The notes under the pieces are model-generated. The model searched no databases. It saw only the letters and a program-made list of their open reading frames with translations, and was not told the origin of the DNA. Shown piece by piece: positions 9,783 through 61,125 of a stretch of 64,000 bases of DNA. The translations under genes were made by a program, and so were the position numbers. The stretch covers positions 620,001-684,000 of the forward strand of contig CANXME010000233.1 of assembly GCA_948144175.1 (NCBI GenBank), read 5' to 3'. Position 1 is the stretch's first letter. The number at the start of each line of letters is the position of its first letter. Source of the stretch: Closterium sp. NIES-65 (lineage: Eukaryota; Streptophyta; Zygnematophyceae; Desmidiales; Closteriaceae).

Positions 9783-9908
9783 TGTCAGAATATTATCTTA
9801 TTGTTCTAGCCTGTAGTGGGGTGCTCTATAGCGAGTACAACCCTTCTAGGGTTTGCTATTTGTATCCTCATTCTTGCTAGTTCAATCCTCTTTCTTCAAA
9901 CTTTGACA
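9783..9908 (+). repeat. Copia-A 5' LTR
   Basis: Starts TGTCAGAATATT and ends CTTTGACA. It is identical to 11197-11322. It contains the LTR core shared across the window (TGTAGTGGGGTGCTCTATAG, then GAGTACA) and a reversed telo-box, AGGGTTT. Confidence 0.95.
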
Positions 9909-9981
9909 TGGTATCAGAGCAGGTCGATCCCCTTGGATTGATCCTGTGGGTGTGTCCCCACCTTGCTTCCGCTGCTACTTT
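9909..9981 (+). promoter_or_regulatory. Copia-A PBS plus antisense initiator-tRNA-like leader
   Basis: TGGTATCAGAGC (9909-9920) is the exact complement of the 3' end of plant initiator tRNA-Met and primes minus-strand DNA. What follows keeps the order of the antisense tRNA: a hairpin at the T-arm position (9922-9944), then CTGTGGGT, CCCACC (anticodon stem) and GCTTCCGCTGC (9965-9975, D-arm). The comparison uses the plant tRNA sequence from memory. Confidence 0.8.
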
Positions 9982-10480
9982 TTCATCCCGCCGTGCGCCC
10001 CGAGGCGCGCGGCGGTTTTCTGCCCGCCGTGCGCCCCGAGGCGCGCGGCGGTTCATTGCCCGCTGTGCGCCCCGGGGCGCGCGGCGGGCTTCTCCTCTAC
10101 GTCGCGGCCCCGCCCCGGCCCGTCGCCGCCCGTGCGCCTGCCCGGCTCGGCCCCGCCCTTCGTCGCGGCCCCGCCCCGGCCCGTCGCCGCCCGTGCGCCT
10201 GCCCGGCTTGGCCCCGCCCTACCTGTCGCGGTCCCGCCCCTCCGTCGCGGCCCCGCCCCGACCGTCGCGGCCCCGCCCCTCGTCGCGGCCCCGCCCCTGC
10301 GTCGCGGCCCCGCCCCTCGAAGCGGCCCCGCCCTACGTCGCGGCCCCGCCCCGGACCCTATGCGGCCCCGCCCTACCTTCGCGGCCCCGACCTGTCGCGG
10401 CCCCACCCTACCGTCGCGGCCCCGCCCCTTGTCGCGGCCCCGCCCTCCCCTCAGGTCCGTGGTGGGCCCCCCCCCCTTTC
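9982..10480 (+). repeat. Copia-A leader tandem repeats
   Basis: About three copies of a roughly 45-bp unit built on CGTGCGCCCCGAGGCGCGCG, then many units of CGCGGCCCCGCCC with variable spacers. Extremely GC-rich. It occupies the place between PBS and gag in pol-bearing relatives. Confidence 0.9.
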
Positions 10481-11196: not shown

Positions 11197-11322
11197 TGTC
11201 AGAATATTATCTTATTGTTCTAGCCTGTAGTGGGGTGCTCTATAGCGAGTACAACCCTTCTAGGGTTTGCTATTTGTATCCTCATTCTTGCTAGTTCAAT
11301 CCTCTTTCTTCAAACTTTGACA
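11197..11322 (+). repeat. Copia-A 3' LTR
   Basis: Identical to 9783-9908. It is preceded by the polypurine tract CTATGGGGGTG and followed by the target duplication CGCCA. Confidence 0.95.
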
Positions 11323-11796: not shown

Positions 11797-11866
11797 TGGT
11801 ATCAGAGGGCGGCATGTCTGCCGCCTTCCTGTGTATGGGCCCACCACCTGCTTCCGCTGCCCTACC
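11797..11866 (+). promoter_or_regulatory. Copia-B PBS plus antisense initiator-tRNA-like leader
   Basis: PBS TGGTATCAGAG, then a perfect 7-bp hairpin GGCGGCA/TGCCGCC with loop TGTC (11808-11825), then CCTGTGTATGGGCCCACCAC (11828-11847) and GCTTCCGCTGC (11850-11860). The last two match the reverse complement of the anticodon arm and D-arm of plant initiator tRNA-Met, in the correct order. Confidence 0.8.
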
Positions 11867-12828: not shown

Positions 12829-12877
12829 TGGTATAGAGCAGGTCCTTCCTAGGACCGAAATTTTCTAAGGGCCCACC
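12829..12877 (+). promoter_or_regulatory. Copia-C PBS, hairpin and GGGCCCACC motif
   Basis: The PBS TGGTATAGAGC lacks one C relative to the usual site. Then comes a perfect 5-bp hairpin, GGTCC/GGACC (12841-12856), and GGGCCCACC (12869-12877), the complement of the initiator tRNA anticodon 5' stem. Confidence 0.75.
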
Positions 12878-13520: not shown

Positions 13521-13824
13521 GCGCTCGCCCCTCTAGGGCCCCAACCGGCCCCGTGCCGACCTCGCCGACCCGTGCCCACCACCTAGAGGCCCCGGGCGGC
13601 CCGTTCCCGCCGCAGCACACGAGGGAGAGCGGGCGGCCCGTCCCCGCCGTGACCCGAGCCGCGCGACCCGAGCCGCGCGCCCCGAGCCGAGCCGCGCGCC
13701 CTGAACCGAGCCGCGCCACCTAGCCGAGCCGCGACCCGACCTGAACCGAGCCGCGCCGCCCTGCCCTACCTGGTTCGTCCTACCTGCTTCTCCTACTGCT
13801 ACTGCTGCTATTTCTACTATTCCT

Positions 13825-16419
13825 ATGGCTAGCCCAGAGGTTCTCGTGCTCGATGCTGAGGGCCGCCCTGTGAAGTTTGACACCTGGCTCGATGACCTGC
13901 ACCTCTACCTACAGCTCACAGCCAAGGATGACATCTCACTGTACGATCACGTCCTAGGCCATGTCACTGCCCCTGCTGCTACTGCTGACAGCACTGCTCG
14001 CTCACAGTGGCAGACTCGTGATGCCCACGCTCGCTTCGCAATTCGCAACTCCCTGCCGATAGACGAACGCGAGCACTTTGGTCAGCACAAGACTGCGCAG
14101 GCACTGTACACAGCTGTAGTTGCTCGCTACTCCTCACCTGCCTCTGCCGCACTAGGCCGTCTCTCCCTCCCCTACCTGTTTCCCGACCTGGCCTCCTTTC
14201 ACATAGTCGCTGACGGCGGACGCCGCAGCGGCAAGGGAAAAGGGGGCAAGGGTGGTGGCGGTGACGGCGGGGGAGGCGGCGGTGGGGGCGGTGGAGGCAG
14301 TGGGGGTGGTGGCTCGGCTGGAGGGGCGAGTGGTAGCGGTGGGGGTGGTGGCGGCAGCGGCGGGGGAGGTGGCAGGAGTGGAGGCGGCGGTTGGGGTGGC
14401 GGTGGACGAGGCGGCGGCAGGGGTTGGGGTGGTCGAGGAGGTGGCAGCGGTGGTGGTGGCCGTGGAGGCACTGGCGGTGGCCAGGGCCAGCAGCACACTC
14501 CCTCGCCCCAGGAGGTCCGTGAGTGGTACTCTCAGCACGGGGGTGGGGGTGGTCTTAGCTGCACGTACGTCATTCGCACTGGTGACCGCACTGGTCAGCA
14601 GTGTGGACGACCGCACGCCACACAGCGCTGCTTCTCTCGTCTCGACGACGCTTGGCGTGTTCAGTTCCCTCAGGCCACTAAGCTGCCCCGCTGGCTTGAT
14701 CTCCTGAAGAAGGGGATTGATATCTATGCTCTAGACTTTGATGCTATTCTATCTGCCATGTATGTGATGTCTACTAGTGGAGAGGGTGCTGAGTACTTGT
14801 GTGTGCCGCCCGACCCGGGCATTAGGGCCAGTGCGTCTGCCGCTCCAGGTACTCGCGTGTCGGCTACCCCAGGTGCTGGTGAGGCTGCTGCTCTAGGTGC
14901 TCGTGTGTCTCCCCCCCTTGCTACTGCGTCGACTGCCGCAGTGCACACCTTCACACTGGACTCAGGTGCTTCTCGCTGCTTCTTTCGTGACCGCACTGCC
15001 CTTGAGCCGCTTGCTCGGCCAGTTGCTGTCTCCCTTGCTGACCCCTCTGGGGGTCCGGTCATTGCGACCTCTTCCACTGTCCTTCCCTGCCCTGCGGTCC
15101 CGTCGGGCACACTGTCAGGTCTCCACCTCCCCTCGTTCTCTACGAACTTGGTGGCAGGATGTGCACTCCAGGACGGGGGTGTTCACCAGTTCACCCCTGC
15201 CTACGAGCGCGTGACACACTGCACGTGTGCTCGTACGGGCCGTCACTTGGCTACCTTCACTCGGCAGCCGGGGTCGGACCTGTACACACTGACTACTGAG
15301 TCCCCTCAGGTTGCTGCGACTGCGTCCGCATCCGCGTCAGGTCAGCTGTCCGCCCCCTGCTCGTGTCGCTCTTTGGCACACGAGACTGTCCTCTGGCACC
15401 ACCGCCTTGGCCACCCGTGTGTGCAGCGGCTTCGTGCCATGCACTCCCGGTACCTTGTCTCTGGCCTGCCCAGGGTCCTTCCTGCCCTCCCACCCTCGCC
15501 TGCTCCTACCTGTCTCCCCTGTGTCGAGGGACGGCAGCGCGCCGCTCCTCACTCCTCCTCGTTCCCCCCGACGACTGCTCCCTTGCAGACACTCCACATG
15601 GACGTGTGGGGCCCAGCCCGCGTCCGTGGTCAGGGTCAGGAGAGGTACTTTCTGATAGTTGTTGATGACTACTCGCGCTACACCTCGGTCTTCCCCTTGC
15701 GCACCAAGGGTGAGGTCCGTGATGTCTTGATCCCTTGGATCCGCAGAGCCTGTCTCCAGCTCAGCGAGCGTTTTCACTCGGACTTTCCTGTCATGCGCTT
15801 GCACTCTGACAGAGGTGGTGAGTTCTCCTCCGACCTCTTGGCATCCTACTGTGCTGAGCTCGGCATTGAGCAGTCGTTCACGCTTCCGGCTTCTCCACAG
15901 ACGAATGGGGTTGCGGAGCGCCGCATTGGCCTGGTCATGGAGGTCGCTCGTACCTCCTTGATCCATGCGGCTGCCCCCCAATTTCTGTGGCCGTTTGCGG
16001 TCCGGTACGCTGCGCATCAGCTCAACCTCTGGCCCCGTGTCTCCTTGCCGGAGACCTCGCCCACGCTGCTGTGGATGGGGGAGGTTGGCGATGCGTCGCG
16101 TTTGCGGGTCTGGGGGTCTCGAGCTTTTGTCCGCGATTCGTCTGCGGACAAGCTCTCCTCCCGTGCTGTTCCCTGCGTCTTCCTCGGCTTTGTCCCGGAC
16201 GCGTCTGGTTGGCAGTTTTACCACGCCACCTCGCGCCGAGTCTTGCCCTCCCAGGACGTCACTTTTGACGAGTCACTTTTGAGCTTGGGGGTGTGGAGCC
16301 TCGTGGTGCTGAGCTGCGGAGTCCGGAGTCTGGGGGTTCTGAGTGTGGAGGTACTAGGCCTGGGAGTCCTGCACCTGGAGGAGCCCTCTCCTCGGAGCAG
16401 CTGCGTGCGTGGTACTTAG
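13825..16419 (+). CDS. Copia-C Gag-protease-integrase
   Basis: The 864-codon frame starts at the ATG matching the conserved Gag start of the other copias here. The Gag core is short: about 100 residues present in Copia-G and H after 'FPDL' are missing, and the frame runs straight into a Gly-rich stretch (about 140-220). A variant zinc knuckle CX13CX3HX4C follows (Cys246, Cys260, His264, Cys269). The protease motif Asp-Ser-Gly-Ala-Ser is at 379. Integrase has the HHCC domain (His525-Cys566) and a D,D35E core (Asp593, Asp662, Glu698). After the 'VTFDES' block (about 820) the frame enters an out-of-frame reading of the linker and ends, so the deletion and frame change near 16290 separate it from reverse transcriptase. 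Acts in cytoplasmic virus-like particles and the nucleus. The Gag deletion makes function in cis doubtful. Confidence 0.9.
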   Translation: MASPEVLVLDAEGRPVKFDTWLDDLHLYLQLTAKDDISLYDHVLGHVTAPAATADSTARSQWQTRDAHARFAIRNSLPIDEREHFGQHKTAQALYTAVVARYSSPASAALGRLSLPYLFPDLASFHIVADGGRRSGKGKGGKGGGGDGGGGGGGGGGGSGGGGSAGGASGSGGGGGGSGGGGGRSGGGGWGGGGRGGGRGWGGRGGGSGGGGRGGTGGGQGQQHTPSPQEVREWYSQHGGGGGLSCTYVIRTGDRTGQQCGRPHATQRCFSRLDDAWRVQFPQATKLPRWLDLLKKGIDIYALDFDAILSAMYVMSTSGEGAEYLCVPPDPGIRASASAAPGTRVSATPGAGEAAALGARVSPPLATASTAAVHTFTLDSGASRCFFRDRTALEPLARPVAVSLADPSGGPVIATSSTVLPCPAVPSGTLSGLHLPSFSTNLVAGCALQDGGVHQFTPAYERVTHCTCARTGRHLATFTRQPGSDLYTLTTESPQVAATASASASGQLSAPCSCRSLAHETVLWHHRLGHPCVQRLRAMHSRYLVSGLPRVLPALPPSPAPTCLPCVEGRQRAAPHSSSFPPTTAPLQTLHMDVWGPARVRGQGQERYFLIVVDDYSRYTSVFPLRTKGEVRDVLIPWIRRACLQLSERFHSDFPVMRLHSDRGGEFSSDLLASYCAELGIEQSFTLPASPQTNGVAERRIGLVMEVARTSLIHAAAPQFLWPFAVRYAAHQLNLWPRVSLPETSPTLLWMGEVGDASRLRVWGSRAFVRDSSADKLSSRAVPCVFLGFVPDASGWQFYHATSRRVLPSQDVTFDESLLSLGVWSLVVLSCGVRSLGVLSVEVLGLGVLHLEEPSPRSSCVRGT

Positions 16420-19160
16420 AGTACTACAGCCTCCGGAGAGTTACAGCTCGAGCCGGACGTACTACTGGGACTGGTGCTAGTGCTTCTTCTCCCGTTTGGG
16501 AGCTCCCCTCCCGCGAGCGGATCCGTGAGTGGTACGAGCGGCGCTGCACTCTTCGGAGTGGCGTGCCTCGTGTTCCGGACCCCGCTGCTGTTGGAGCTGC
16601 TGCTGGTGCTGAGGACCCGGGCGTTGGAGCTGCTGCTGGTGCTGAGGACCCGGGCGTTGGAGCCGCTGCTGGTGCTGAGGACCCGGGCGTTGGAGCTGCT
16701 GCTGGTGCTGAGGACCCAGGCATTGGAGCTGCCGCTGGTGCTGCGGACCCGGGCGTTGGAGCTGCTACTAGTGCTGAGGACCCAGGCGTTGGAGCTGCCG
16801 CTGGTGCAGAGGACGTGGGCGCTGGAGCTGCTGCTGGTGCTGCGGACCCTGGTGCGGGTGTCCCTGCTGGCTGTGGTGTCGCTGCTCGGTCTCGGCCGTA
16901 CTTTGTTCCGCTCCTTCAGCAGGTTCTTGGTCAGCTTCCTCCTCCTTTTCCTCCTCCCTTCTTAGCGTGTCCTCCGCCTGTCCAGCTGCACTCGTCGTTA
17001 CCGTCTGCCTCCTCTCTCCCTGGTCCTGCTCCTTACACTGGTCCGACTGGAGGTCTTACTGAGCGGCGTGAGCCTGCGTCTCGTCCTGCATCGCCTAAGT
17101 CTCGTCCTGAGTCGCCTGTCCGCACTGCTCTCTCTAGTAGTCGAGTCCAGCGTCAGCGTCTTCCTGCTGTCCCAGGCACTCACCGGATGGCGCTTCGTCC
17201 GTCCACTGCTCCACAGCGTGTCCCACTGCCGTCTCCTCCTGCTTCCTCTCTTCCTGCTCTTGCTGACCCTGGGTCAGACTCTCTTCGTGCTACCAGTCCT
17301 ACTGTCACGCGTCTCCTGGCTACTGTTGTCACTGACCCTTCCTTTGAGTCTGCTGCTGCGTCTGCCTTAGTTGCTGAGCTTGTCGACTTTGTTGCTCGCT
17401 GTCGTCTAGACTACGCTGCTAGCCTAGTTGCTGAGTCTGAGTGTGTCTGTCCTCCGTCCGTCGGGGGTGAGTGTGCTCTTGGCACTGACGTCCTTGAGGA
17501 CAGGCAGGAGGAGTTTGAGTGCTTTGCTGCCGCTTTGCCCCATCTCTTGTCCATGCTTGTTGCCCCTGAGGGAGACCCGGATGCACCAGACATCCCGACC
17601 CCACGCTCTTACGCAGAGGCGATGGCCGGTCCCTACTCCTCTCAGTGGCAGTCAGCCATGGACACAGAGATGGCTTCCTGGAAGTCCACAGGCAGCTACG
17701 TCGACGAGGTTCCCCCACCTGGGGCGAACATCGTCAGTGGCATGTGGATTTTCAGGGTGAAGCGGCCGCCGGGCTCTCCGCCTGTCTTCAAGGCGCGTTA
17801 CGTTGCACGAGGCTTCAGTCAGCGAGAGGGAGTTGACTTCTTCCAGACCTTCTCCTCGACCCCGAAGATGACCACTCTTCGGGTTCTGCTGCACGTCGCC
17901 GCTCAGCGTGACTACGAGCTCCACTCGCTTGACTTCAGCACTGCTTTCCTGCAGGGCAGCCTGCACGAGGAGATCTCGCTGCGCCATCCACCTGGCTTCA
18001 CTGGGTCGTTCCCTCCTCGTACCCAGTGGAGCCTCCGACGGCCAGTCTACGGTCTCCGCCAGGCGCCTCGTGAGTGGCACGACACACTGAGGACTACGCT
18101 TGCGGCTCTTGGGTTCGCGCATTCTACTGCTGACCCGTCGCTGTTTCTACGCACCGACACCTCACTGCCGCCGTTCTACGTCCTTGTGTACGTCGACGAC
18201 TTGGTCTTTGCTACTGCTGACACTGTGGCACTCGCCCACGTGAAGTCGGAGCTGCAGAACAGACACACGTGCACAGACCTGGGTGAACTGACAAGCTATC
18301 TTGGCTTGCGGATCACCCGGGAAAGAGCACGCCGCACCATCACCTTGACTCAGTCACACATGGTGCAGCAGGTCCTTCAGCGCTTCCGCTTCACGTACTC
18401 CTCGCCTCAGCCCACTCCTCTGCCTACCGGTCACTCGCTCTCAGCTCTGCCTTCGGATGAGTCCGTAGAGCCGAGTGGCCCGTATCCAGAGCTTGTGGGT
18501 TGCCTCATGTACCTGATGAGCTGCACTCGACCAGACCTTGCATACCCTCTCTGCATTCTTGCACGCTATGTCGCTCCCGGCCGTCACCGGAAGGAGCACA
18601 TGGATGCAGCTAAGAGGGTGTTGCGCTACTTGTGCAGTACGTCGGGCATGGGGCTAGTGCTTGGAGGGCGAGTCCCAGTTGTTCTCACTGGGCACTCGGA
18701 CGCTTCTTGGGCAGACGACCAGGCTACTCAGCGGTCGTCTCAGGGTTACTCCTTCAGTCTTGGCTCTGGTTCTGTTTCTTGGCGTTCTACTCGCTCTTCT
18801 TCTGTTCTCAGCTCCAGTTGTGAGGCTGAGATCTACGCCACAGCCATGGCGGCCCAGGAGCTACGCTGGCTCACCTACTTGCTGACCGACCTTGGAGAGC
18901 CGCCTCGTTCTCCTCCAGTGCTGTACGTCGACAACAAGGCAGCCATTGCCTTGTGTGAGGAGCACAGAACGAAGCACATTGCTCTGCGTTACTTCCTTGC
19001 TCGAGAGCTGCAGCAGCGTGGTCAGCTTCGCCTGCGTTACGTGGCCTCTGAGGCCAACACTGCTGATGTGTTCACCAAGGCGCTTCAGCCTTGTGACCAT
19101 CAGCGCTTTTGCACTCTTCTAGGCCTTGTGCCTACTGGACCTCACTTGCTTACTTCTTGA
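16293..19160 (+). CDS. Copia-C reverse transcriptase-RNase H
   Basis: The 955-codon frame is in a different phase from the preceding frame and overlaps it by 127 bases. Its ATG may be fortuitous: the frame is the downstream half of Pol. Residues 100-190 are about nine 11-residue repeats of the type GAAAGAEDPGV, a linker with no known fold. Reverse transcriptase starts near 450. The first catalytic Asp is in LHSLDFSTAFL (about 547) and the YVDD box is at 633-636. RNase H has the Asp in TGHSDASW, Glu in SCEAEIYA, Asp in YVDNKA, and the terminal ADVFTKAL motif. Four residues present in Copia-H (before HRTKHIAL) are missing. Catalytic residues are intact, but without fusion to Gag or integrase it probably depends on a helper. 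Confidence 0.9.
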   Translation: MEPRGAELRSPESGGSECGGTRPGSPAPGGALSSEQLRAWYLEYYSLRRVTARAGRTTGTGASASSPVWELPSRERIREWYERRCTLRSGVPRVPDPAAVGAAAGAEDPGVGAAAGAEDPGVGAAAGAEDPGVGAAAGAEDPGIGAAAGAADPGVGAATSAEDPGVGAAAGAEDVGAGAAAGAADPGAGVPAGCGVAARSRPYFVPLLQQVLGQLPPPFPPPFLACPPPVQLHSSLPSASSLPGPAPYTGPTGGLTERREPASRPASPKSRPESPVRTALSSSRVQRQRLPAVPGTHRMALRPSTAPQRVPLPSPPASSLPALADPGSDSLRATSPTVTRLLATVVTDPSFESAAASALVAELVDFVARCRLDYAASLVAESECVCPPSVGGECALGTDVLEDRQEEFECFAAALPHLLSMLVAPEGDPDAPDIPTPRSYAEAMAGPYSSQWQSAMDTEMASWKSTGSYVDEVPPPGANIVSGMWIFRVKRPPGSPPVFKARYVARGFSQREGVDFFQTFSSTPKMTTLRVLLHVAAQRDYELHSLDFSTAFLQGSLHEEISLRHPPGFTGSFPPRTQWSLRRPVYGLRQAPREWHDTLRTTLAALGFAHSTADPSLFLRTDTSLPPFYVLVYVDDLVFATADTVALAHVKSELQNRHTCTDLGELTSYLGLRITRERARRTITLTQSHMVQQVLQRFRFTYSSPQPTPLPTGHSLSALPSDESVEPSGPYPELVGCLMYLMSCTRPDLAYPLCILARYVAPGRHRKEHMDAAKRVLRYLCSTSGMGLVLGGRVPVVLTGHSDASWADDQATQRSSQGYSFSLGSGSVSWRSTRSSSVLSSSCEAEIYATAMAAQELRWLTYLLTDLGEPPRSPPVLYVDNKAAIALCEEHRTKHIALRYFLARELQQRGQLRLRYVASEANTADVFTKALQPCDHQRFCTLLGLVPTGPHLLTS
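16570..16862 (+). repeat. 33-bp coding tandem repeat in Copia-C linker
   Basis: About nine copies of a 33-bp unit based on GGAGCTGCTGCTGGTGCTGA followed by GGACCCGGGCGTT, encoding the 11-residue linker repeat between integrase and reverse transcriptase. Confidence 0.93.
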
Positions 19161-21920: not shown

Positions 21921-22849
21921 ATGTCAGGCATGGAGGGCCACGGCGACAACTACGCGACTACGAGCGACATCGCGAGCCTCCGCACGGACATGGAGCAGAC
22001 GCAGGCGACGCTTCGTCGACTTGAGGCTTTTCTGACAAGCCAACCAGGGTTCGCCACCGCAGCAGCAGCGACCGCAGCGAATGCAGCACCGACAACTCCA
22101 GCAGCAGTGGCAACACCGACATTTCACGGACCGATGGCACCACTGTCGCCGAACCTCGAAGCGCGAAGGGATCCGACGTCCGGCGATTTGTGGCCACCCT
22201 CAAAATTTACTTCGAGGCCATTGGCTGTTCGACCCCGCAACACGACGCAGCAAGGATTCGGCTCGCAGCGACACTGTTACGTGGACCGGCTCTCGAATGG
22301 ATTTACTACACCGACGTAGCCCGCGGGGAGAAAACGTGGCAGCAGTTTCGGGCATATTTAATCGAGCGTTTCGAACCAATTAATACAACCTTCATGGCGC
22401 GGCAGCAAATACACCGACACAAGCAATACAGTAGTGTAACACAGTATACGCAGCAGATGGAGTTATTGTTCAACCGCATCACCGACCTGACCGAAGGCGA
22501 AAAAATCCAGGCGTACAACGAAGGGTTGAAAATGGAGATTCGGCGGCAGGTGATTGCGGCGAATTACAACAGCTATAGAGACATAGTGCGTGCTGCCGAG
22601 CGATACGACGCGCTGACTCGAGGTCAACCCGAAACACGACGTTTCACTCCGAACCGTACATTCGGCACGGAGCGATCGGCACCCCCCACGTTCGTCGAAC
22701 CGATGGATATCGACAAATACGACGCGAAGCAGCAGCCGACAAAATGTGAATTTTGCGGCGCAGCAGGACATCAGATTTTGTCGTGCTACAAAATGAAGAA
22801 AGCACGTACGGCACTCCGGGACGGAAACAGTGGAGCACCCCCGAAGTAA
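21921..22849 (+). pseudogene. Gypsy-N gag (frameshifted)
   Basis: The N-terminal part (from the ATG at 21921) is a short coiled-coil-like segment followed by Ala/Thr/Pro-rich sequence. The retrotransposon gag core continues in another phase (22190-22849), with LKIYFEAIG and the LLRGPALEWIYY region, ending in a canonical zinc knuckle CX2CX4HX4C (CEFCGAAGHQILSC). A frameshift near 22100-22170 separates the two. Gag packages the RNA and forms the particle. This copy would be truncated. Confidence 0.85.
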
Positions 22850-23223
22850 AAAAACGGGAATCGCCAGTAGCCGCGGATCGACCTGGCGATCGCGTAAAGA
22901 TCCGAAAAGCAGAAAAAGGCGACGACGTGGCGACTTCGGAGCGGGTGAAAAAAATGAGAAAATGATGGCGCGAATTTAAAACGTCACGACCGGCCGGCAT
23001 CAGGGGAAATCGCCGAGGCAAATGGAGGCTCCGCGAAAAAAGACTCTGCACCGGTCGGGAAACTCCAGCCGAACACCCACGAAAGTAAGAATTCGTTAAA
23101 AGTATCCTATAAAGATGCTCTAACGAAGAATATTGCTCCTCGTGGTTTTCAAGCCTTAAAAAATTCAAGGGAGGTTTAGAGGCCAAGAAAAGGCCTTTAG
23201 AAATTATTCAGGCACCTGAGAAG

Positions 23224-24502
23224 TTGGGCAAAGTACTACGAAGCGTAGAAAAGGGTCGTGCGTTCCGTCGAGTTAATATTCTCTCCCCGCAGCACAGTGT
23301 TAAGGCTCCCCGTTGCCCACAGGTGAAGCCTACACAGCTGCCAAGGCTTAGAGGAGACATCCAGGCTAAGGAGAAATTATACAAGCCTCGGAAAAATCCT
23401 CCTACCCCCCAGATGAAGTTGGAAAGCGCTAAGTCAGGTATAGGAAAAAGGGAAGGTATTAAGTTTGATGTACCCTATGATCCTATTAACAAGACCCTCT
23501 TTGGCTACTCAGCGCAACAGAAACCACTACTCCTCGAGGTGTTATGCAATGGGCGACTCCTCGAGGCACTGGTGGACAGCGGTGCATCTCACTCGGTGTG
23601 TGACCGCGGAGCATTGGAGAAAATTGGAGAGAAGGCGGAAGAGACCCAGATTTCAGCAACCATGGTGGACGGTACGAAGCATCCTATCCACGGCGAAGCA
23701 TCACTGCACCTGCATATAGGTGCGTTGAGGTGGAAGCTGAAGCTACCAGTCACCAACATCAAAGGATTAGATTTCATCTTGGGGCGAGATTTTCTGAAGC
23801 GGTTCAACCCCGAGATTGATTGGGTCAACAGCAAAGTGTGCATCTACAACAACGGGAAGCGGATAGCACTGCGAAGCTGGATGGATACAGGGGACGTACC
23901 TGAAACGACACAGGCACGGTTCCAACAGACGGTGAATGAGAGTAACACGAGTTACCTAGCACTGGTCATGACAGCAGCAGAGGAGGAGAAGCCGAATTCC
24001 AAGCTCCCTGCAGTAGTAAAGGAGGTCTTGGGGCAGTACAAAGATATAATGCCCGACGACCTACCTACAGGCGTACCTCCAGCACGCACCCACGAGCACG
24101 AGATCGTGGAGGAACCAGGTGCGAAACCCGTCTCACGTGCACCATACCGACTGAGTCCGACTGAACTGACAGACATGAAGAAACAGATAGAGTATCTACT
24201 GGTCAGACAACTGATCCGCCCATCCACCTCTCCCTACGGTGCACCAGTTCTCTTCACTCCAAAACCAGACGGCAGTCTACGGATGTGCATCCACTAATGC
24301 GCACTAAACAAACAGACAGTCAAAAACAAATATCCCATATCGCGCATAGACGACCTACTCGATAAACAACGTGGAGCAATAGTCTTCTCAAAGCTGGACC
24401 TACGGTCGGGTTACTGGCAGATCAAGATGGCGGACAACTCGATCCACAAGACGGCGTTCCGTACCAGATACGGCTCCTACGAATACTTGGTGATGCCGTT
24501 CG
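23224..24502 (+). pseudogene. Gypsy-N protease and reverse transcriptase, truncated
   Basis: The frame holds an aspartic protease with VDSGASHSVC (about residue 116) and a second conserved LDFILGRDFL block, then the start of reverse transcriptase (PVSRAPYRLSPTELTDMKKQ, APVLFTPKPDGSLRMCI). A TAA stop at 24295-24297 interrupts the conserved C-I-D-Y-R-A-L-N region. The same frame then continues through [25 protein letters not shown] and [13 protein letters not shown], until the Copia-D LTR cuts it at 24503, before the catalytic aspartate pair. The 22850-23223 interval is poorly preserved. Confidence 0.9.
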
Positions 24503-24624: not shown

Positions 24625-24670
24625 TGGTATCGAGCAGGTTCCCCCTTGGGAACTGTGCCTAGGGCCCACC
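24625..24670 (+). promoter_or_regulatory. Copia-D PBS, hairpin and GGGCCCACC motif
   Basis: PBS TGGTATCGAGC, a perfect hairpin GTTCCC/GGGAAC with loop CCTT (24638-24653), ACTGTG, then GGGCCCACC (24662-24670). The order matches the antisense of initiator tRNA-Met from acceptor to anticodon arm. Confidence 0.75.
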
Positions 24671-34189: not shown

Positions 34190-34264
34190 GGTAATCGCAG
34201 TCGGAAGCCAAGTATGGTGGGCCCGAAAGAAAAACGGTCCTACGGACCTACTACTCTGAAACCA
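34190..34264 (-). promoter_or_regulatory. Copia-E PBS, hairpin, GGGCCCACC and D-arm match
   Basis: Read on the minus strand from 34264: TGGTTTCAGAG, a perfect hairpin GGTCC/GGACC (34236-34248), GGGCCCACC (34216-34224), then GGCTTCCGACTGCG (about 34194-34207), which differs from the antisense tRNA D-arm GCTTCCGCTGCG by one inserted base. Confidence 0.7.
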
Positions 34265-41769: not shown

Positions 41770-44109
41770 TCACAACTGTCCACGCTGCTGTAGCTCACGA
41801 GCAAGAAAGTAGCGGAGAGCAATGTGCTTTGTCCTGTGCTCCAGTCTCTGCTCTCGACACAAGGCCAGCATGGCCTTGTTGTCTACGTACAGGACTGGAG
41901 GAGAACGAGGCTGCTCTCCAAGGTCGGTCAGCAGGTAGGTGAGCCAGCGTAACTCCTGTGCAGCCATAGCCCCAGCGTAGATCTCAGCCTCACAACTGGA
42001 GCCGAGAACAGAAGACGAGCGGGTAGCCCGCCACGAAACAGAGCCGGAGTCAAGGCTGAAGGTGTAACCCTGTGACGACCGCTGCGTAGCCTGGTCGTCA
42101 GCCCAAGAAGCGTCTGCGTGCCCAGTGAGAACCACTGGACTGCGCCCTCCAAGCACTAGCCCCATGCCTGACGTACTGCACAAGTAGCGCAACACCCTCT
42201 TCGCTGCAGCCATGTGCTCTGGTCGGTGTCTCCCAGGAGCAACATAGCGTGCGAGAATGCTAAGAGGGTATGCAAGGTCAGGTCGAGTGCAGGTCATCAG
42301 GTACATGAGGCAGCCAACAAGCTCTGCATACGGGCCACTCGACTCTACGGACTCATCCGAAGGCAGAGCTGAGAGCGAGTGGCGAGTAGGCAGAGGAGTG
42401 GCCTGAGGCGAGGAGTACGTGAAGCCGAAGCGCTGAAGGACCTGCTGCACCATGTGTGACTGAGTCAGGGTAATGGTGCGGCGTGCTCTGTCCCGGGTGA
42501 TCTGCAAGCCAAGGTAGCTGCGCAGTTCACCCAGGTCAGTGCACGTGTGTCTCTTCTGCAGCTCGGACTTCACGTAGGCGAGTCCAGCAGTGTCAGCTGT
42601 GGCAAAGACCAAGTCGTCGACGTACACGAGGATGTAGAACGGCGGCAGAGAGGTGTCGGTGCGCAGAAACAGCGACGGGTCGGCAGTAGACGGAGCAAAC
42701 CCAAGTGCCGCGAGCGTAGTCCTCAGTGTGTCGTGCCACTCACGTGGCGCCTGGCGGAGACCGTAGACTGGACGCCGGAGACTCCATTGGGTACCAGGAG
42801 GGAAAGACCCAGTGAAGCCAGGTGGGCGGCGCAGCCAGATCTCCTCGTGCAGACTGCCCTGCAAGAAAGCTGTGCTGAAGTCGAGAGAGTGCAGCTCGTA
42901 GTCACGGTGAGCAGCAACGTGCAGCAGAACCCGAAAAGTGGTCATCTTCGGGGTGGGGGAGAAGGTCTGAAAGTAGTCAACCCCCTGCCGCTGACTGAAG
43001 CCACGAGCCACGTAACGCGCCTTGAAGACAGGCGGAGAACCCGGCGGCCGCTTCACCCTGAAAATCCACATGCCACTGACGATGTTCCCCCCAGGAGGGG
43101 GGACAGCGTCGACGTAGGTGCCTGTGGACTTCCAGGAAGCCATCTCTACGTCCATAGCTGCCTGCCACTGAGAGGAGTAGGGACCCTCTATCGCCTCCGC
43201 GTAAGAGCGCGGAGTCGGGATGTCTGGTGCATCCGGGTCTCCCTCAGGGGCTAGCAGTACAGACGCGTGATGGGGTGAAGCGGCGGCCAGACACTGGAAC
43301 TCCTCCTGCCTGTCCTCTAGGACGTCCGTGCCGAGGGCACACTCACCCCCGACGGACGGAGGACAGGCAGACGCAGACTCAGCGACAAGACTGGCAGCGT
43401 AGTCTAGACGACAGCGCGCAGCAAAGTCGACAAGCTCAGTGACAAGGGCAGACGCAGCAGACGACTCGAAGGAAGGTTCAGTGACAGCAGTAGCAAGGAG
43501 ACGCGTGACAGTAGGACTGGCAGCACGAAGAGAGTCAGACTCCGGGTCGGCAAGAGCAGGAAGAGAGGAAGCAGGAGGAGAAGGCAAAGGGGCACGCAGA
43601 GGAGCAGTGGACGGACGCAGAGACATCCGGTGCGTGCCAGGGACAGGAGGAGGACGCTGACGCGAACCGCGACCACTAGCGCGCTCTGGACGAACAGGCG
43701 ACGCAGGACGAGACGCAGGCTCACGACGCTCAGTAAGACCTCCAGTCGGACCAGTGTAGGGAGAAGGAGCAGGCAAAGGGGAGGCAGGCTGTAGCTGTGG
43801 CTGTGACTGGACAGGCTGTGGACCCTCTAAGGGAGGAGGAGGTGTAAGACCAAGAACCTGCTGCAGGAGCGGAACGAAGTACGGTCGGGGCCGCGCGGCG
43901 ACTCCAGAAACAGCAGGAACAGCACCAGCACTCTCGGCAGGAGCACCCACTCCAGTAGCACCTCCAGCAGCACCACCAGAAGCTCCAGAACCTCCAGCAG
44001 CAGCACCAGGAGCACTGTCAGTCGGACCGCCAGCAGCAGGCTCAGCGCCAACGCCCTCAGCAGCACCAGCTCCAGGAGAACTCGCAGACCCAACAGCTCC
44101 AGCACCCAC
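41770..44109 (-). CDS. Copia-G reverse transcriptase-RNase H
   Basis: 779-codon frame in a different phase from the upstream Gag-integrase frame. It carries the Pro/Ser-rich pre-RT region, reverse transcriptase with LHSLDFSTAFL and the YVDD box, and RNase H with TGHADASW, SCEAEIYA and YVDNKA. The frame ends after LARELQQRGQL because TGA (41770-41772) replaces the CGA found in Copia-H. The original stop matches 41641-41643, so about 42 residues, including the ADVFTKAL motif, are lost. The ATG at 44109 is probably internal rather than a genuine start. Confidence 0.9.
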   Translation of the reverse strand: MGAGAVGSASSPGAGAAEGVGAEPAAGGPTDSAPGAAAGGSGASGGAAGGATGVGAPAESAGAVPAVSGVAARPRPYFVPLLQQVLGLTPPPPLEGPQPVQSQPQLQPASPLPAPSPYTGPTGGLTERREPASRPASPVRPERASGRGSRQRPPPVPGTHRMSLRPSTAPLRAPLPSPPASSLPALADPESDSLRAASPTVTRLLATAVTEPSFESSAASALVTELVDFAARCRLDYAASLVAESASACPPSVGGECALGTDVLEDRQEEFQCLAAASPHHASVLLAPEGDPDAPDIPTPRSYAEAIEGPYSSQWQAAMDVEMASWKSTGTYVDAVPPPGGNIVSGMWIFRVKRPPGSPPVFKARYVARGFSQRQGVDYFQTFSPTPKMTTFRVLLHVAAHRDYELHSLDFSTAFLQGSLHEEIWLRRPPGFTGSFPPGTQWSLRRPVYGLRQAPREWHDTLRTTLAALGFAPSTADPSLFLRTDTSLPPFYILVYVDDLVFATADTAGLAYVKSELQKRHTCTDLGELRSYLGLQITRDRARRTITLTQSHMVQQVLQRFGFTYSSPQATPLPTRHSLSALPSDESVESSGPYAELVGCLMYLMTCTRPDLAYPLSILARYVAPGRHRPEHMAAAKRVLRYLCSTSGMGLVLGGRSPVVLTGHADASWADDQATQRSSQGYTFSLDSGSVSWRATRSSSVLGSSCEAEIYAGAMAAQELRWLTYLLTDLGEQPRSPPVLYVDNKAMLALCREQRLEHRTKHIALRYFLARELQQRGQL

Positions 44110-46470
44110 AGGACGACACCGCCGGGACGCGCGGTAGCAGTGCCCTCTGCAGCCGAAGAACCACCAGCACTAGCAGCACGCCTCCAGCGCCTGGCAAACC
44201 ACTCACGCAGCTCCTGTGGGGAGAGTGGCTCCCGGCGAGACGAAGCACCCCCAGGCTCAGCACCCCCAGGCACAGCAGTCCCAGGCACAGCACCCCCAGG
44301 CACAGCACCTCCAGGCTCAGCACCCCCAGGCTCAGCACCCCCAAGCTCAGCACCCCCAGACTCAGCACCCCCAGACTCCGCACCCCTAGACTCCGCACCC
44401 CCAGGCTCAGCACCCCCAGACTCCGCACCCCCAGGCTCAGCACCCCCAGACTCTGCACCCCCAGGCTCAGCTCCCGCAGCAGCACCAGAGTCACCAGTGA
44501 CCTCGACAGGCACGACCGCGTCTACCTGGGACACACCTGACGGGGCAGGACCCTGAGGGGGGAGGGGGTCTACCGGGGGGGGACCTGGTACCAGGAAAAG
44601 CGGGGGCGGGGGGAGGGACGGAGTGCGGTAGGGGAAGAGGCGGTAGTAGGGTACCGACTCGTCGAACGTGACGTCCTGGGAGGACAGAACACGTCGAGAG
44701 GTGGGGTGGTAGAACTGCCACCCAGGGGCGTCGAGGGGGAACCCCAGGAAGACGCAGGGAGCAGCGCGAGGGGACAGCTTGTCCGCAGACAAGTCGCGGA
44801 CAAACGCCCGAGATCCCCAGACCCGGAACGGCGACGCATCGCCAACCTTCCCCGTCCACAGCAGGGCTGGGGAGGTCTCCGGCCTGGAGACCCTGGGGTG
44901 GAGGTTGATCTGATGCGCTGCGTACCTGACCGCAAACGGCCACAGAAAATGGGGGGCAGCCGCATGCATCATGGACGTACGGGCGACGTCCATGACCATG
45001 CCAATGCGGCGCTCAGCAATCCCATTTTGCTGTGGGGAGTCCGGAAGCGTGAAGGACTGGCGGATGCCTCGCGCTCGACAGTAGGCACGAAGAAGGCCAG
45101 AGGAGAACTCTCCGCCTCTGTCAGAGTGCAGACGCAACACAGGAAAGTCGGAGCCAAAGCTCTGCCTGAGCTGAAGACGAGCTGCGCGGATCCAGTCGAT
45201 CAGCACCTCAGTAACCTCACCCTTGCTGCGCAAGGGGAAGACTGTGGTGTAACGCGAGTAGTCGTCAACAACGAGCAGGAAGTAGCGCTCCTGACCCTGT
45301 CCAAGGATGCGGGCCGGGCCCCACACGTCCATGTGAAGTGTCTGCAGCGGGGCCTCTGTCGGAGGAAACTGGGAGGAGTGAGGGGCAGCACGCTGGCGCC
45401 CCTCGACACAGGGGACACAGGCAGGGCCAGGGCCCTGAGGAAGGGGAGGTAGGGACCGGGGGAGACCAGACACAAGAAGACGGGAGGCCATGCCTCTGAG
45501 CCGAAGCAGAGAGGGGTGGCCAAGGCGGTGGTGCCAGAGGAGGGTCTCGTGAGACAGACGACGACACGAACAGGGGGAAGACTCAGGACCAGACCTGGAC
45601 GCTGCTGCAAACACCTGACCAGACGAAGGGACCGTACCAGACTCAGTACCTGGAGGAGAAGAAGTGGTCAGTGTGTACAGGCTCGACCCTGGCCGACGTG
45701 TAAACGTAGCCAGGTGGCGTCCCGTGCTAGCCTCCGTGCAGTGGGTCACCCGCTGACGAGCAGGAGTGAACTGGTGGACACCCGCATCCTGTAGGTCAGC
45801 ACCACTCACCAGGTTCGTCGAGAACGAGGGGAGGTAGAGACCAGACAGGGTGCCAGAGGGGGCCGCCGGACACGGAAGTACCGTGGAGAAGCGAGACAGG
45901 ACAGGCCCCCCAGAGGGGTCAGCCAGGGACACCGCAACCGGCCGACTCAGCGGCGTGAGAGTAGTGCGGTCCCGAAAGAAGGAGCGAGACGCTCCTGAGT
46001 CAAGTGTGAAGGTGTGAGAGGCCGAAGCCGACACAGTACCTGAGAGGGCAGACTCACCAGTACCTGAGAGCTCAGACGCACTGGCACCTAGAGCAGCAGC
46101 CTCACTAGTACCTGACACAGCAGTACCAATGCCCGGGTCGGGCGGGAAACACCGGTAACAATCATCCTCATCACTACCAGTCACAACATACATAGCAGAA
46201 AGAATAGCATCAAAGTCAAGATCATAAATGGCTACACTAGCCCTAGACAGCTCCCCCCAGCGGGGGATCTCAGCGGCCTCCGGAAACTGCTGACGCCAGG
46301 CGTCGGTTAGGCGGCCAAAGCAGCGGCGGGCCGTGTGGGTGCCTCCACACCTCTCCCCCGCACGGTCGCCGGTGCGAAGAACGTAGGGGCAGGGACCAAA
46401 CGCACCACCACGCTGACGCTGCAAGTACCACTCACGGAGCTGCTGAGGGGCGGGGACGGTGCGAGAGCGT

Positions 46471-48626: not shown

Positions 48627-48673
48627 GGTGGGCCCGAAGCACAGTTCCCACAGGGGAACCTGCTCTGATTCCA
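48627..48673 (-). promoter_or_regulatory. Copia-G PBS, hairpin and GGGCCCACC motif
   Basis: Minus strand from 48673: TGGAATCAGAGC, a perfect hairpin GTTCCC/GGGAAC (48644-48659), ACTGTG, then GGGCCCACC (48627-48635). It corresponds in order to the antisense of initiator tRNA-Met. Confidence 0.78.
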
Positions 48674-50939: not shown

Positions 50940-51157
50940 TGTCAAACTCATATGCTATAGTCTGTGTAGGCTGTAGTGGGGTAGACAATATGGGGTACAA
51001 CACTTCTAGGTTTTCCTACCTGTACCCACCTGCTTGCTAGTTCATACATTCCTCATTCTTCACATGGTATCAGAGCAGACTCGGGTTTGATTCCCGGTGT
51101 GTGCACATGTAGGTCGTTGCCGCTATGCTTAGTCCTGGGCTTCCAATTGTGGGGGGG
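50940..51157 (+). mobile_element. Element O: LTR, primer site and polypurine tract only
   Basis: LTR-like 50940-51064 (TGTCAAACTCATATG to ATTCTTCACA, with the shared core TGTAGGCTGTAGTGGGGTAG), a perfect primer site TGGTATCAGAGC (51065-51076), then only about 80 bases before a polypurine-like GGGGGGGTG ending at 51157. The following TGTCAATAG resembles an LTR start, but the next 340 bases do not match the LTR. Probably a very small internally deleted element whose 3' LTR was lost or replaced. Confidence 0.6.
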
Positions 51158-51500: not shown

Positions 51501-51969
51501 TGTCAAACTATTATGTTGTGTATTGTGCAGGCTGTAGTGGGGTAGCTCATAAGGGGTACAACCCAATTAGGGTTAGTACTTGTACCCACCTTGTTTCTAG
51601 TTCATTCATTCTCGCCTAGTCTTTTGACATGGTTTCAGAGCAGGTCGTGTTCCAGGACCGTTTTTTTTAGGGCCCACCGAACAGTTCCCTACATGTAGTG
51701 CGTTACCCTGTTCGTAGCCCCCTACCCTGCCTGTCGCGCTGCCCCACCAGTCGCACTGCCATGCCCTGCCTGCGCGCCGCCCTGCTGGCTGCCGCGCCGT
51801 CCTGCCCTGCCCGCGCACCACCCTGCTGGTTGCCGCGCCACCCTGCTGGCCACTCGCCTGCCTGCCTTGCCCGTTGTGTCGCCCTAGGACCGGTGCGACG
51901 CCCTACCCTGCTCGTCGCGTCGCCCTAGGACCCGCGCGACACCCTGCCCTGCCCGTCGCGTCGCCCTGG
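51501..51969 (+). mobile_element. Copia-K, 5' end fragment
   Basis: LTR 51501-51629 (TGTCAAACTATTATG to CTTTTGACA), primer site TGGTTTCAGAGC (51630-51641), a 4-bp hairpin GGTC/GACC, GGGCCCACC (51670-51678), and a leader with CCTGCCCGTCGCGTCGCCCT repeats to 51969. The rest of the element is absent: Gypsy-J sequence starts at 51970. Confidence 0.85.
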
Positions 51970-53863: not shown

Positions 53864-53991
53864 TGTGAAACTGAAGAACAGGAATGAAATGACTAAGGAA
53901 AGATTGGGTACAAATACAACCCTAGAAACCCCGTACCCCATATGTGCTACCCCACTATAGCCTACAGCAACTATGTCATATAAATCTGACA
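53864..53991 (-). repeat. Copia-H 3' LTR
   Basis: Plus-strand TGTGAAACTGAAGAAC to AAATCTGACA. Identical to 60993-61120. Confidence 0.97.
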
Positions 53992-54199
53992 CACCCCCAT
54001 AGGCAAAGTGGGGGAGAACAAGGGGTCACAAGACCAGTCAAGCAAAGCAAAGCAAGCTCAGGGTGGATCACAAAGTCACCACACAGTCCGAGCACAAGAG
54101 TAGGGCCAGAGGCCAGTTCACATGCAGGAGTACAGACATATATATAAAACTAGACAAGCAAGAGCAGGCATATATATATATGTCACAGTACAAGTGAAG

Positions 54200-60189: not shown

Positions 60190-60930
60190 GAAAGGCGGCT
60201 CAGCGACTTGGCGGCTCGGGTGCTGGGCGGCTCGGCTGCTGGGCGGCTCGGGCGCAGGGCGGCTCGGCTCCCGGGCGGCTCGACGGCTGGGCGGTTCGGG
60301 TGCAGGGCGGGTCAGGCGCAGGGTCGGCTGCGGCTGGGCGGCTCGGCTGCGGCTGGGCGGCTCGGCGGCTCCTGGGCGGCTCGGCTGCTCCCGGGCGGCT
60401 CGGCGGCTCCGGGCGGCTCGGTTGCTCCGGGCGGCTCGGCTGCTGCTGGGGCCGTGTAGGTAGGGCGGCTGGGCCGCGAAGGTAGGGCGGCGGGCGGGCC
60501 GCTGATAGGGCGGCAGGTGGGCCGCAGGTAGGGCGGCGGCTGGCCGCAAGTAGGGCGGCGAAGGGCCGCGGGTAGGGCGGCGAAGGGCCGCGGGTAGGGC
60601 GGCGGGTGGGCCGCAGATGAGGCGGCGTAGGGCCGCAGGTAGGGCGGCGGGACGGCCGCTGGTAGGGCGGTGGTCGGGCCGCAGAAAGGCGGCGGGGCCG
60701 CGAAGGGATGGCGGGGCCGCGTCGAAGTGGCGGGGCCGCGACTGGGCGGTGGGGCCGCGATCAGAACGGGCGGCGGGGCCGCGACTGGGCGGCGGGGCCG
60801 CGACTGGGTGGCGGGGCCGCGACTGAGTGGCGGGGCCGCGCGAGGGGGTGGCGGGGCCGCGTCTGAAGGGCGGCGGGGCCGCAAGGGGACAGGGCGACTC
60901 GGAGGGTCACAAAAAAAAAGGAATCGCGCG
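60190..60930 (-). repeat. Copia-H leader tandem repeats
   Basis: On the plus strand: CGGCTCGGCTGCTGGGCGGC units (60200-60450), then AGGTAGGGCGGCGGGTGGGC units (60450-60670), then GGCGGGGCCGCGACTGGGTG units (60680-60880). All are GC-rich. Confidence 0.92.
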
Positions 60931-60946
60931 CCTCGGGGCGCGCTTC

Positions 60947-60992
60947 GGTGGGCCCTAGGCGAAGTTCCCACAGGGAACCTGCTCTTATACCA
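60947..60992 (-). promoter_or_regulatory. Copia-H PBS, hairpin and GGGCCCACC motif
   Basis: Minus strand from 60992: TGGTATAAGAGC (one mismatch to the initiator tRNA 3' end), hairpin GTTCCC/GGGAAC with a 3-base loop (60964-60978), then GGGCCCACC (60947-60955). Confidence 0.78.
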
Positions 60993-61120
60993 TGTGAAAC
61001 TGAAGAACAGGAATGAAATGACTAAGGAAAGATTGGGTACAAATACAACCCTAGAAACCCCGTACCCCATATGTGCTACCCCACTATAGCCTACAGCAAC
61101 TATGTCATATAAATCTGACA
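60993..61120 (-). repeat. Copia-H 5' LTR
   Basis: Identical to 53864-53991. It contains AACCCTAGAAACC and the shared core CCCCACTATAGCCTACAGC. Confidence 0.97.
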
Positions 61121-61125
61121 CAGTC

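Follow-up and report, generated by a model that had tools for sequence, protein, structure and literature searches.

Behind the primer-binding site (PBS) of seven retroelements in a 64,000-nt stretch of the Closterium sp. NIES-65 genome (the window; C233:620001-684000) stands a short hairpin with a changing stem, followed by an invariant nonamer, GGGCCCACC, hereafter the box. What is this leader, and what keeps the box in it? The original prediction offered a second contact with the primer tRNA, a site of RNA dimerisation, or both. We propose, with a probability of about 0.62, that the leader stems from a captured copy of the primer, initiator tRNA-Met (tRNA-iMet), of which the PBS and the anticodon box would have been kept as a two-part tRNA contact. 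The proposal is built on sequence comparison within the window and the Closterium assembly searched (G000, 874 Mb), and covers one species, one assembly, one PBS 15-mer, and related element types.

The examined window elements, lettered as in Table 1, are Ty1/copia retrotransposons. In a Pfam scan of elements C and G, rve and gag_pre-integrs were found in ORF 13705-16419 of element C and RVT_2 in its ORF 16269-19160, which is the Ty1/copia order with the integrase upstream; RVT_2 was also found in 41770-44169 of element G. The best 120 of 8000 scored protein matches to an RT-bearing ORF all came from Closterium strains. The LTRs are short (about 126-218 bp) and directly adjoin the PBS in the five elements tested (A, B, C, G, and H). 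A, B, and H also have TG..CA LTR ends and 5-bp target duplications (cgcca, agtaa, and gactg, respectively); in C and G the LTR/PBS border alone is clear, and in D, E, and K a second LTR was not identified. Since the LTRs of the five elements end exactly at the TGG PBS, it is this site that sets the LTR end. Amid the copia elements, positions 22025-24297 hold Ty3/gypsy fragments (Ty3_capsid/Retrotrans_gag, then aspartyl protease). In IMG/VR, a search with the RT piece found no relatives and one with the PBS-gap-box pattern no matches; a tRNA-arm pattern found 11 loci, 8 with tRNA-Met genes and 0 equal to the plant iMet sequence, which serve as controls only.

The box is present at all seven sites where it had been reported, each, as claimed, within about 55 nt of a PBS: its start lies 37, 38, or 40 nt from the PBS start, and a short stem-loop stands between the two in 7/7 elements (Table 1). 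The window contains eight matches to GGGCCCACC against 1.3 ± 1.1 expected, with at least eight in 0/100 shuffles; the eighth, at 10461 (-), lies within element A, away from a PBS. Element A indeed has the hairpin without the exact motif, and carries CCCCACC and a complement of the tRNA D-arm. A point missed by the original prediction is that the PBS is imperfect in all seven boxed elements and perfect in element A and at site 51065, both of which are without the exact box. A second, GC-rich hairpin (GCGCGCC-CCGA-GGCGCGC, 60926-60943, -) lies a few nucleotides past the box of element H and is strongly conserved in family H; several other families have a similar GC-rich sequence past the box, and it is repeated in element A.

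Table 1. Leader features of the window elements, in window positions
Element	Feature	Position	Strand	Remark
H	Anticodon box GGGCCCACC	60947..60955	-	complement of tRNA-iMet nt 25-33
H	Hairpin GGTTCCC-TGT-GGGAACT	60963..60979	-	at place of T-arm/variable-loop complement
H	PBS TGGTATAAGAGC	60981..60992	-	one mismatch to tRNA-iMet 3' end complement
H	5' LTR	60993..61122	-	about 130 bp, CA end directly before PBS
H	3' LTR	53864-53993		130/130 positions identical to 5' LTR; flanking gactg duplicated
A	PBS, perfect TGGTATCAGAGC	9909..9920	+	
A	LTRs	9783-9908 and 11197-11322		identical to each other
A	Hairpin	9922..9943	+	
A	D-arm complement CTTCCGCTGC	9966..9975	+	
B	PBS	11797..11808	+	
B	Hairpin GGCGGCA...TGCCGCC	11808..11825	+	
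B	Anticodon box	11837..11845	+	
B	D-arm complement CTTCCGCTGC	11851..11860	+	
C	PBS position, TGGTATAGAGC	12829..12840	+	one base shorter
C	Hairpin GGTCCT-TCCT-AGGACC	12841..12856	+	
C	Anticodon box	12869..12877	+	
D	PBS position, TGGTATCGAGC	24625..24636	+	one base shorter
D	Hairpin	24637..24654	+	
D	Anticodon box	24662..24670	+	
E	PBS	34253..34264	-	
E	Hairpin GGTCC-GTA-GGACC	34236..34248	-	
E	Anticodon box	34216..34224	-	
G	PBS	48662..48673	-	
G	Hairpin	48643..48660	-	
G	Anticodon box	48627..48635	-	
K	PBS	51630..51641	+	
K	Hairpin	51643..51659	+	
K	Anticodon box	51670..51678	+	

The exact 15-mer of the LTR/PBS junction, ACATGGTATCAGAGC, occurs at 7145 places in the assembly. GGGCCCACC stands 15-45 nt behind it at 1591 of these and the reverse complement of GGGCCCACC at 46; the latter belong, by eye, to one A-like family (46/46), whose CCTGTGGGTGGGCCC is the tRNA complement minus a few bases. 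For a motif-blind sample we took the first 100 ACATGGTATCAGAGC places, regardless of the sequence behind them. Fuzzy matching split these into 39 with TRIM sequence on both sides, 9 with TRIM on one side, and 52 with neither. Three of the 52 were dropped as the upstream sequence was not LTR-like, leaving 49 LTR-type sites in 24 clusters, and 31 of the 49 carry the exact box. Five more were set aside: L102 and L130 (gag/pol coding sequence behind the PBS), L141 (PBS followed by a glycine-codon-like repeat, behind which stands a piece of antisense pol), and L126 and L158 (by eye not LTR-like). In the resulting 44 leaders of 19 types the box is exact in 31, with one mismatch in 2, two in 9, and three in 2. 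The window had hinted that the box compensates for an imperfect PBS, an idea that was not borne out: in this genome sample, 31/44 leaders with a perfect PBS have the box, so the coincidence of imperfect PBS and box in the window is no rule.

Counted by representative, the exact box is found in 13/19 leader types, 31-51 nt from the PBS, and is missing from 6/19. It is the most widely common 9-mer among the types: two other exact tRNA complements, CTTCCGCTG and TTCCGCTGC, each reach 5/19, as do several non-tRNA 9-mers (e.g., TTTTTTTTC and AGGACCGTT), and in the adjoining LTR end no 9-mer exceeds 6/19, although the types share ancestry, so that conservation across them is not fully independent.

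The assembly's tRNA-iMet with GGTGGGCCC is represented by six exact copies, each covering nt 1-72 or 1-73, out of 34 hits to plant tRNA-iMet. By sequence it is the primer, the PBS being the 12-nt complement of its 3' end plus CCA. The box was correctly identified as a complement of the anticodon arm: it complements nt 25-33 of the gene sequence without a mismatch (positions 26-34 in standard numbering), and the genome's own tRNA agrees. Furthermore, the leader is colinear with the tRNA-iMet complement, with the PBS corresponding to the 3' end, the hairpin to the T-arm and variable region, GGGCCCACC to the anticodon arm, and in some families CTTCCGCTGC, in the same colinear order, to the D-arm. 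In a whole-tRNA complement the motif would start 42 nt from the CCA complement, compared with 37-40 nt in the window elements. Conserved stretches complementary to the same tRNA beyond the PBS, a feature of the Ty1-type arrangement, are found, but for the anticodon arm and the D-arm rather than the T- and D-arms.

Beyond the PBS, the leaders of A, B, and E matched the tRNA complement better than 1000/1000 shuffles, A without an exact box. The fraction of shuffles reaching the match was 0.001-0.002 for C, D, and G, about 0.01 for K and H, and 0.001 for the unboxed site 20865; sites 21762 and 51065 showed no match beyond the PBS (1000 shuffles). With the exact box masked, A alone among the eight window leaders stays above its shuffles (B 0.225, E 0.189, and C, D, G, H, and K 0.24-0.97), so that, A apart, the tRNA signal of a single window leader comes mostly from the box. 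Summed over the 19 types, local alignment beyond the PBS scored 317.5 against 165 ± 12 (maximum 219, 300 shuffles), and 223.5 against 152 ± 8 (maximum 179.5, 300 shuffles) once the exact box was masked. The sense, reversed, and plain-complement tRNA controls gave 138-158; the complement of another tRNA-Met (L001), which has the same anticodon arm, gave 215, above the shuffle mean of 165 and far under 317.5. Eight-mers of the tRNA complement gave 73 hits in the 19 types (1000 shuffles: mean 2.1, maximum 28), and three other tRNA-Met complements with the same anticodon arm (L001, L003, and L008) gave 42-44. The whole leader resembles a degraded antisense tRNA, which the original prediction did not see, and hairpin and box would thereby be of one origin. 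An antisense-tRNA origin of the leader is well supported.

That the stem changes while its pairing is kept was borne out by covariation in the two gapless leader families tested. The A-like set comprised 28 distinct sequences (26 distinct of the 46 listed, window element A, and L106), with a 9-bp stem in which 93.3% of cells are paired and one pair, C-G/U-A, is changed on both sides. The AGGT(T/C)CCC set comprised 22 distinct sequences (20 of the 26 distinct listed 26-nt linkers, hand-picked for a common stem register, and window elements D and G), with a 6-bp stem 94.7% paired. Paired cells, both-side cells, and covariation score were each reached by 2/500 shuffles in the first family and by 0/500 in the second, and the number of pairs with both-side changes was not above chance in either (363/500 and 151/500), counts that are not probabilities since the rows of each set are related. 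Sliding the partner strand lowers the pairing to at most 52% and 64%, respectively. Among 74 distinct PBS-box linkers (from 100 listed of the 1591), the mean z was -1.57 relative to shuffles, and 38/74 individually reach the 5% level set by their own shuffles; the six distinct 19-nt linkers showed no hairpin beyond shuffles. The stems GGTTCCC/GGGAAC and GGTCC/GGACC, and GGTTCC/GGGACC of L032, lie at the place of the complement of the T-arm and variable region.

Less decayed tRNA copies are also present. Two of the 34 tRNA-iMet hits, L032 and L033, include the complement of CCA, and the other 32 are without it. L032 holds antisense tRNA nt 26-75 (50 nt at 90%, including TGG for CCA) and L033 antisense nt 14-75 at 81%. 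The order in L032 is LTR-like sequence, PBS, the 50 nt of antisense tRNA, and then, within 22 nt, a pol frame whose match lies downstream of the RVT_2 part. The tRNA copy in L032 stops just short of position 26, which in plant initiator tRNA we take to be m2,2G, with m1A at position 58. A T-to-C change in L032 may reflect miscopying of m1A58; hairpin pairing accounts for it equally well. L132 and two listed boxed leaders retain ATCCTAGGACC and CATGGGCCCACC as intermediate stages, and together with L032 and L033 they form a gradient from a nearly full tRNA copy to PBS-hairpin-box. A nearly contiguous PBS and tRNA complement is found in few of the listed leaders only (L032 and L033); in most, the tRNA complement does not directly adjoin the PBS, and a changed hairpin stands between. 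In L130 the LTR and PBS are followed directly by pol, and in L102 gag coding sequence begins 8 nt past the PBS; like L032, both look like the outcome of a jump of plus strong-stop DNA to a site inside an element.

The same PBS is shared by a second class of element. A class of 46 of the 100 ACATGGTATCAGAGC sites was first read as a SINE, a reading we rejected, these being TRIM where looked at. The TRIM (L064, L067, L076, L084, and others) is, to judge from 11 full-type loci, very roughly 360-380 bp long, and consists of an LTR of about 140 bp (TGTCAG...TGACA), the PBS, an inside of about 65-85 nt, a G-run, and a 3' LTR, of which no copy is visible in L067. A tRNA-like stretch straddles its LTR/PBS junction: A-box-like sequence lies in the LTR end, LTR end and PBS form an anticodon-arm-like hairpin, and the B box GGGTTCGAATCCC lies directly behind the PBS. 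It is reminiscent of Helenus/TRIMp3, where the tRNA-like part is within the LTR (PMC10886601). Chimeras joined at the PBS also occur. L073 and L081 have a copia-like 5' LTR and a TRIM inside, L072 has a TRIM LTR and then a copia leader with box, and in the window (50940-51150, site 51065) an LTR-like stretch about 77% similar to the K LTR is followed by a TRIM inside. Such chimeras point to strand transfer from one element to another at the PBS they have in common.

How might such a leader have arisen, and what might it do? Normal plus-strand strong-stop synthesis copies the 3' end of the tRNA only, giving the PBS. Sometimes, we propose, synthesis ran on into tRNA-iMet, and the element took up the additional stretch. 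The captured copy would then have decayed unevenly, the 12-nt PBS and the 9-nt anticodon-arm complement GGGCCCACC being kept, along with the D-arm complement CTTCCGCTGC in some families, while the T-arm/variable complement between PBS and box would have become a freely evolving yet paired hairpin. Base pairs would form at two places in the genomic RNA, between the PBS and the 3' strand of the tRNA acceptor and between the box and the 5' side of the anticodon arm. The two duplexes would be bridged by the leader hairpin and the T-arm of the tRNA, both still folded, and a contact in two parts would serve to choose the primer and hold it in place. We infer the capture step, the RNA pairing, and the benefit of pairing.

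Of the functions originally offered for the box, the second primer-tRNA contact is the one favoured, by the exact complement, the colinear order, the rough spacing, and the further tRNA matches, the pairing itself being a prediction. Predicted energies, which ignore tRNA modifications, are -20.1 kcal/mol for box:tRNA and -19.9 kcal/mol for PBS:tRNA. The inexact boxes in the set of 44 leaders hold 26 substitutions, of which 16 still allow a G-U pair with the tRNA and 10 abolish pairing; many of the 26 share descent, and they lean only weakly toward RNA pairing. Family H was sampled with a gag query blind to the leader (150 scored places, 30 loci taken). A fuzzy PBS search found the leader in 29/30 loci, with the PBS lacking one base in 29/29, the box intact in 29/29, and two main hairpin types (GGTTCC... 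in 8, GGTCCT... in 21). A PBS defect so stable means that tRNA sequence is not rewritten each cycle in H, and the box is then probably held by selection. The box is probably a second grip on the primer tRNA. The first 147 aa of the family H gag are 100% protein-identical in all 150 scored copies (39150 first-look candidates), and H perhaps represents a recent large burst with exchangeable leaders.

The alternatives, whose likelihoods are not mutually exclusive, place the constraint elsewhere. Unlikely, though of some weight, is a role at the DNA level, in which the leader would be the acceptor for over-extended plus-strand strong-stop DNA: read-through DNA would end at modified tRNA positions such as 26, its 3' end would have to agree with the leader for the second strand transfer, and the box would be the landing site. 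A comparable primer over-extension sequence is on record for lentiviruses and spumaviruses (PMC13191261). The tRNA copy of L032 ends just before position 26, which is the 3' border of the box, and the junctions of L102 and L130, like the copia/TRIM chimeras, point to jumps at the PBS or close to it. However, the short leader types repeatedly show the box with an A-to-G change (GGGCCCGCC-like), which keeps G-U pairing in RNA but would leave a DNA copy mismatched, and the persistently imperfect PBS of H argues that tRNA-derived DNA is not inherited there.

We consider it improbable that the box is a passive relic, captured with the tRNA in an ancestor and persisting by shared descent without function. 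Such a history would fit the tRNA homology that the 19 types, pooled, show beyond the box itself, the relatedness of the types, and the lack of special constraint on the box in the young family H, where 29/142 nine-column windows are as substitution-free as the box (40 copies, in a test that lacks power). The box is, however, shared by 13/19 types against 6/19 for the best 9-mers of the adjoining LTR end, and the sequence between PBS and box has been largely replaced with its pairing kept.

RNA dimerisation, the other function originally suggested, gains no specific support and is very unlikely. In this model the GGGCCC palindrome beside the hairpin would start the kissing of two genomic RNAs; it is self-complementary, with a predicted duplex energy of -12.5 kcal/mol, and is kept in 7/13 leaders with an inexact box. 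Yet conservation extends to the ACC outside the palindrome, the palindrome is already given by the tRNA sequence, the tRNA duplex is predicted to be stronger, and the box lies outside the hairpin in folded linkers. Very little probability, likewise, attaches to the box being a second PBS for the 5' half of tRNA-iMet, a reading invited by its complementarity to the anticodon region and by the half-tRNA-Met used in Osser, Bryco, and some Gymco-II copia elements (PMC6317226). In A, B, C, G, and H the LTR stops at the TGG PBS and the box follows about 38 nt later, so that priming at the box would give wrong LTR ends. A transcription-factor site is scarcely credible: GGGCCCAC fits the class I TCP consensus GGNCCCAC, a fit of sequence only, but the box stands almost always in one orientation (1591 vs 46) and 31-51 nt from the PBS, the tRNA match runs on past the site, and GGGCCCGCC variants would lose the TCP fit.

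Our preferred reading, a captured tRNA copy pared down to a two-part contact, has a broader and more tentative form, which we regard as possible but doubtful: read-through plus-strand DNA might repeatedly write antisense tRNA-iMet into copia leaders, stopping at modified positions, with selection carving out the two-part site, a link between full- and half-tRNA priming. The half-tRNA site of Osser, Bryco, and Gymco-II presumably covers the same anticodon stretch as the box. As the box would then also be the pairing place of moss and algal half-tRNA PBSs, the Closterium leaders might be the missing link for the switch between full- and half-tRNA priming. What is known of how retroelements gain, extend, and change their primer-tRNA sites comes mostly from yeast and retroviruses. 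In Closterium, natural junctions number in the thousands, with leaders from nearly full antisense tRNA to a minimal PBS-hairpin-box, which would allow comparative tests of how extended primer contacts arise and are selected. If the pairing is real, the copia superfamily would have an anticodon-arm contact besides those with the T- and D-arms, and this in an alga related to land plants.

Among the open-licence papers listed on Closterium and zygnematophyte elements, on primer contacts and anticodon stems, and on read-through or captured tRNA cDNA in leaders, we recognised no such leader, and the closest known systems each share part of it. Sireviruses show that a short tRNA-Met PBS occurs in plant copia elements; there conservation is lost right after 9 nt (PMC2829016), whereas in Closterium it resumes at the anticodon box. 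The lentiviral and spumaviral sequence past the PBS is identical to the tRNA complement and lies directly behind the PBS at T-loop positions (PMC13191261), whereas the Closterium match extends as far as the anticodon and D-arm, about 40-60 nt past the PBS start and beyond a hairpin. The half-tRNA copia elements (Osser, Bryco, and some Gymco-II) share the complement of the tRNA-Met anticodon region, but a half-tRNA complement defines their PBS (PMC6317226), and the Closterium LTR end carries the full-tRNA PBS (A, B, C, G, and H). Closest, along with the lentiviral sequence, is Ty1, which combines a short PBS with regions of the genomic RNA complementary to the T- and D-arms of tRNA-iMet (PMC4974528, PMC5371799); it has in common with Closterium the Ty1/copia superfamily, tRNA-iMet, a short acceptor PBS, and further tRNA-complementary stretches 3' of the PBS. 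The main conserved stretch in Closterium differs in matching the anticodon arm and in lying behind a hairpin in the leader before gag, and the whole leader is colinear with the tRNA.
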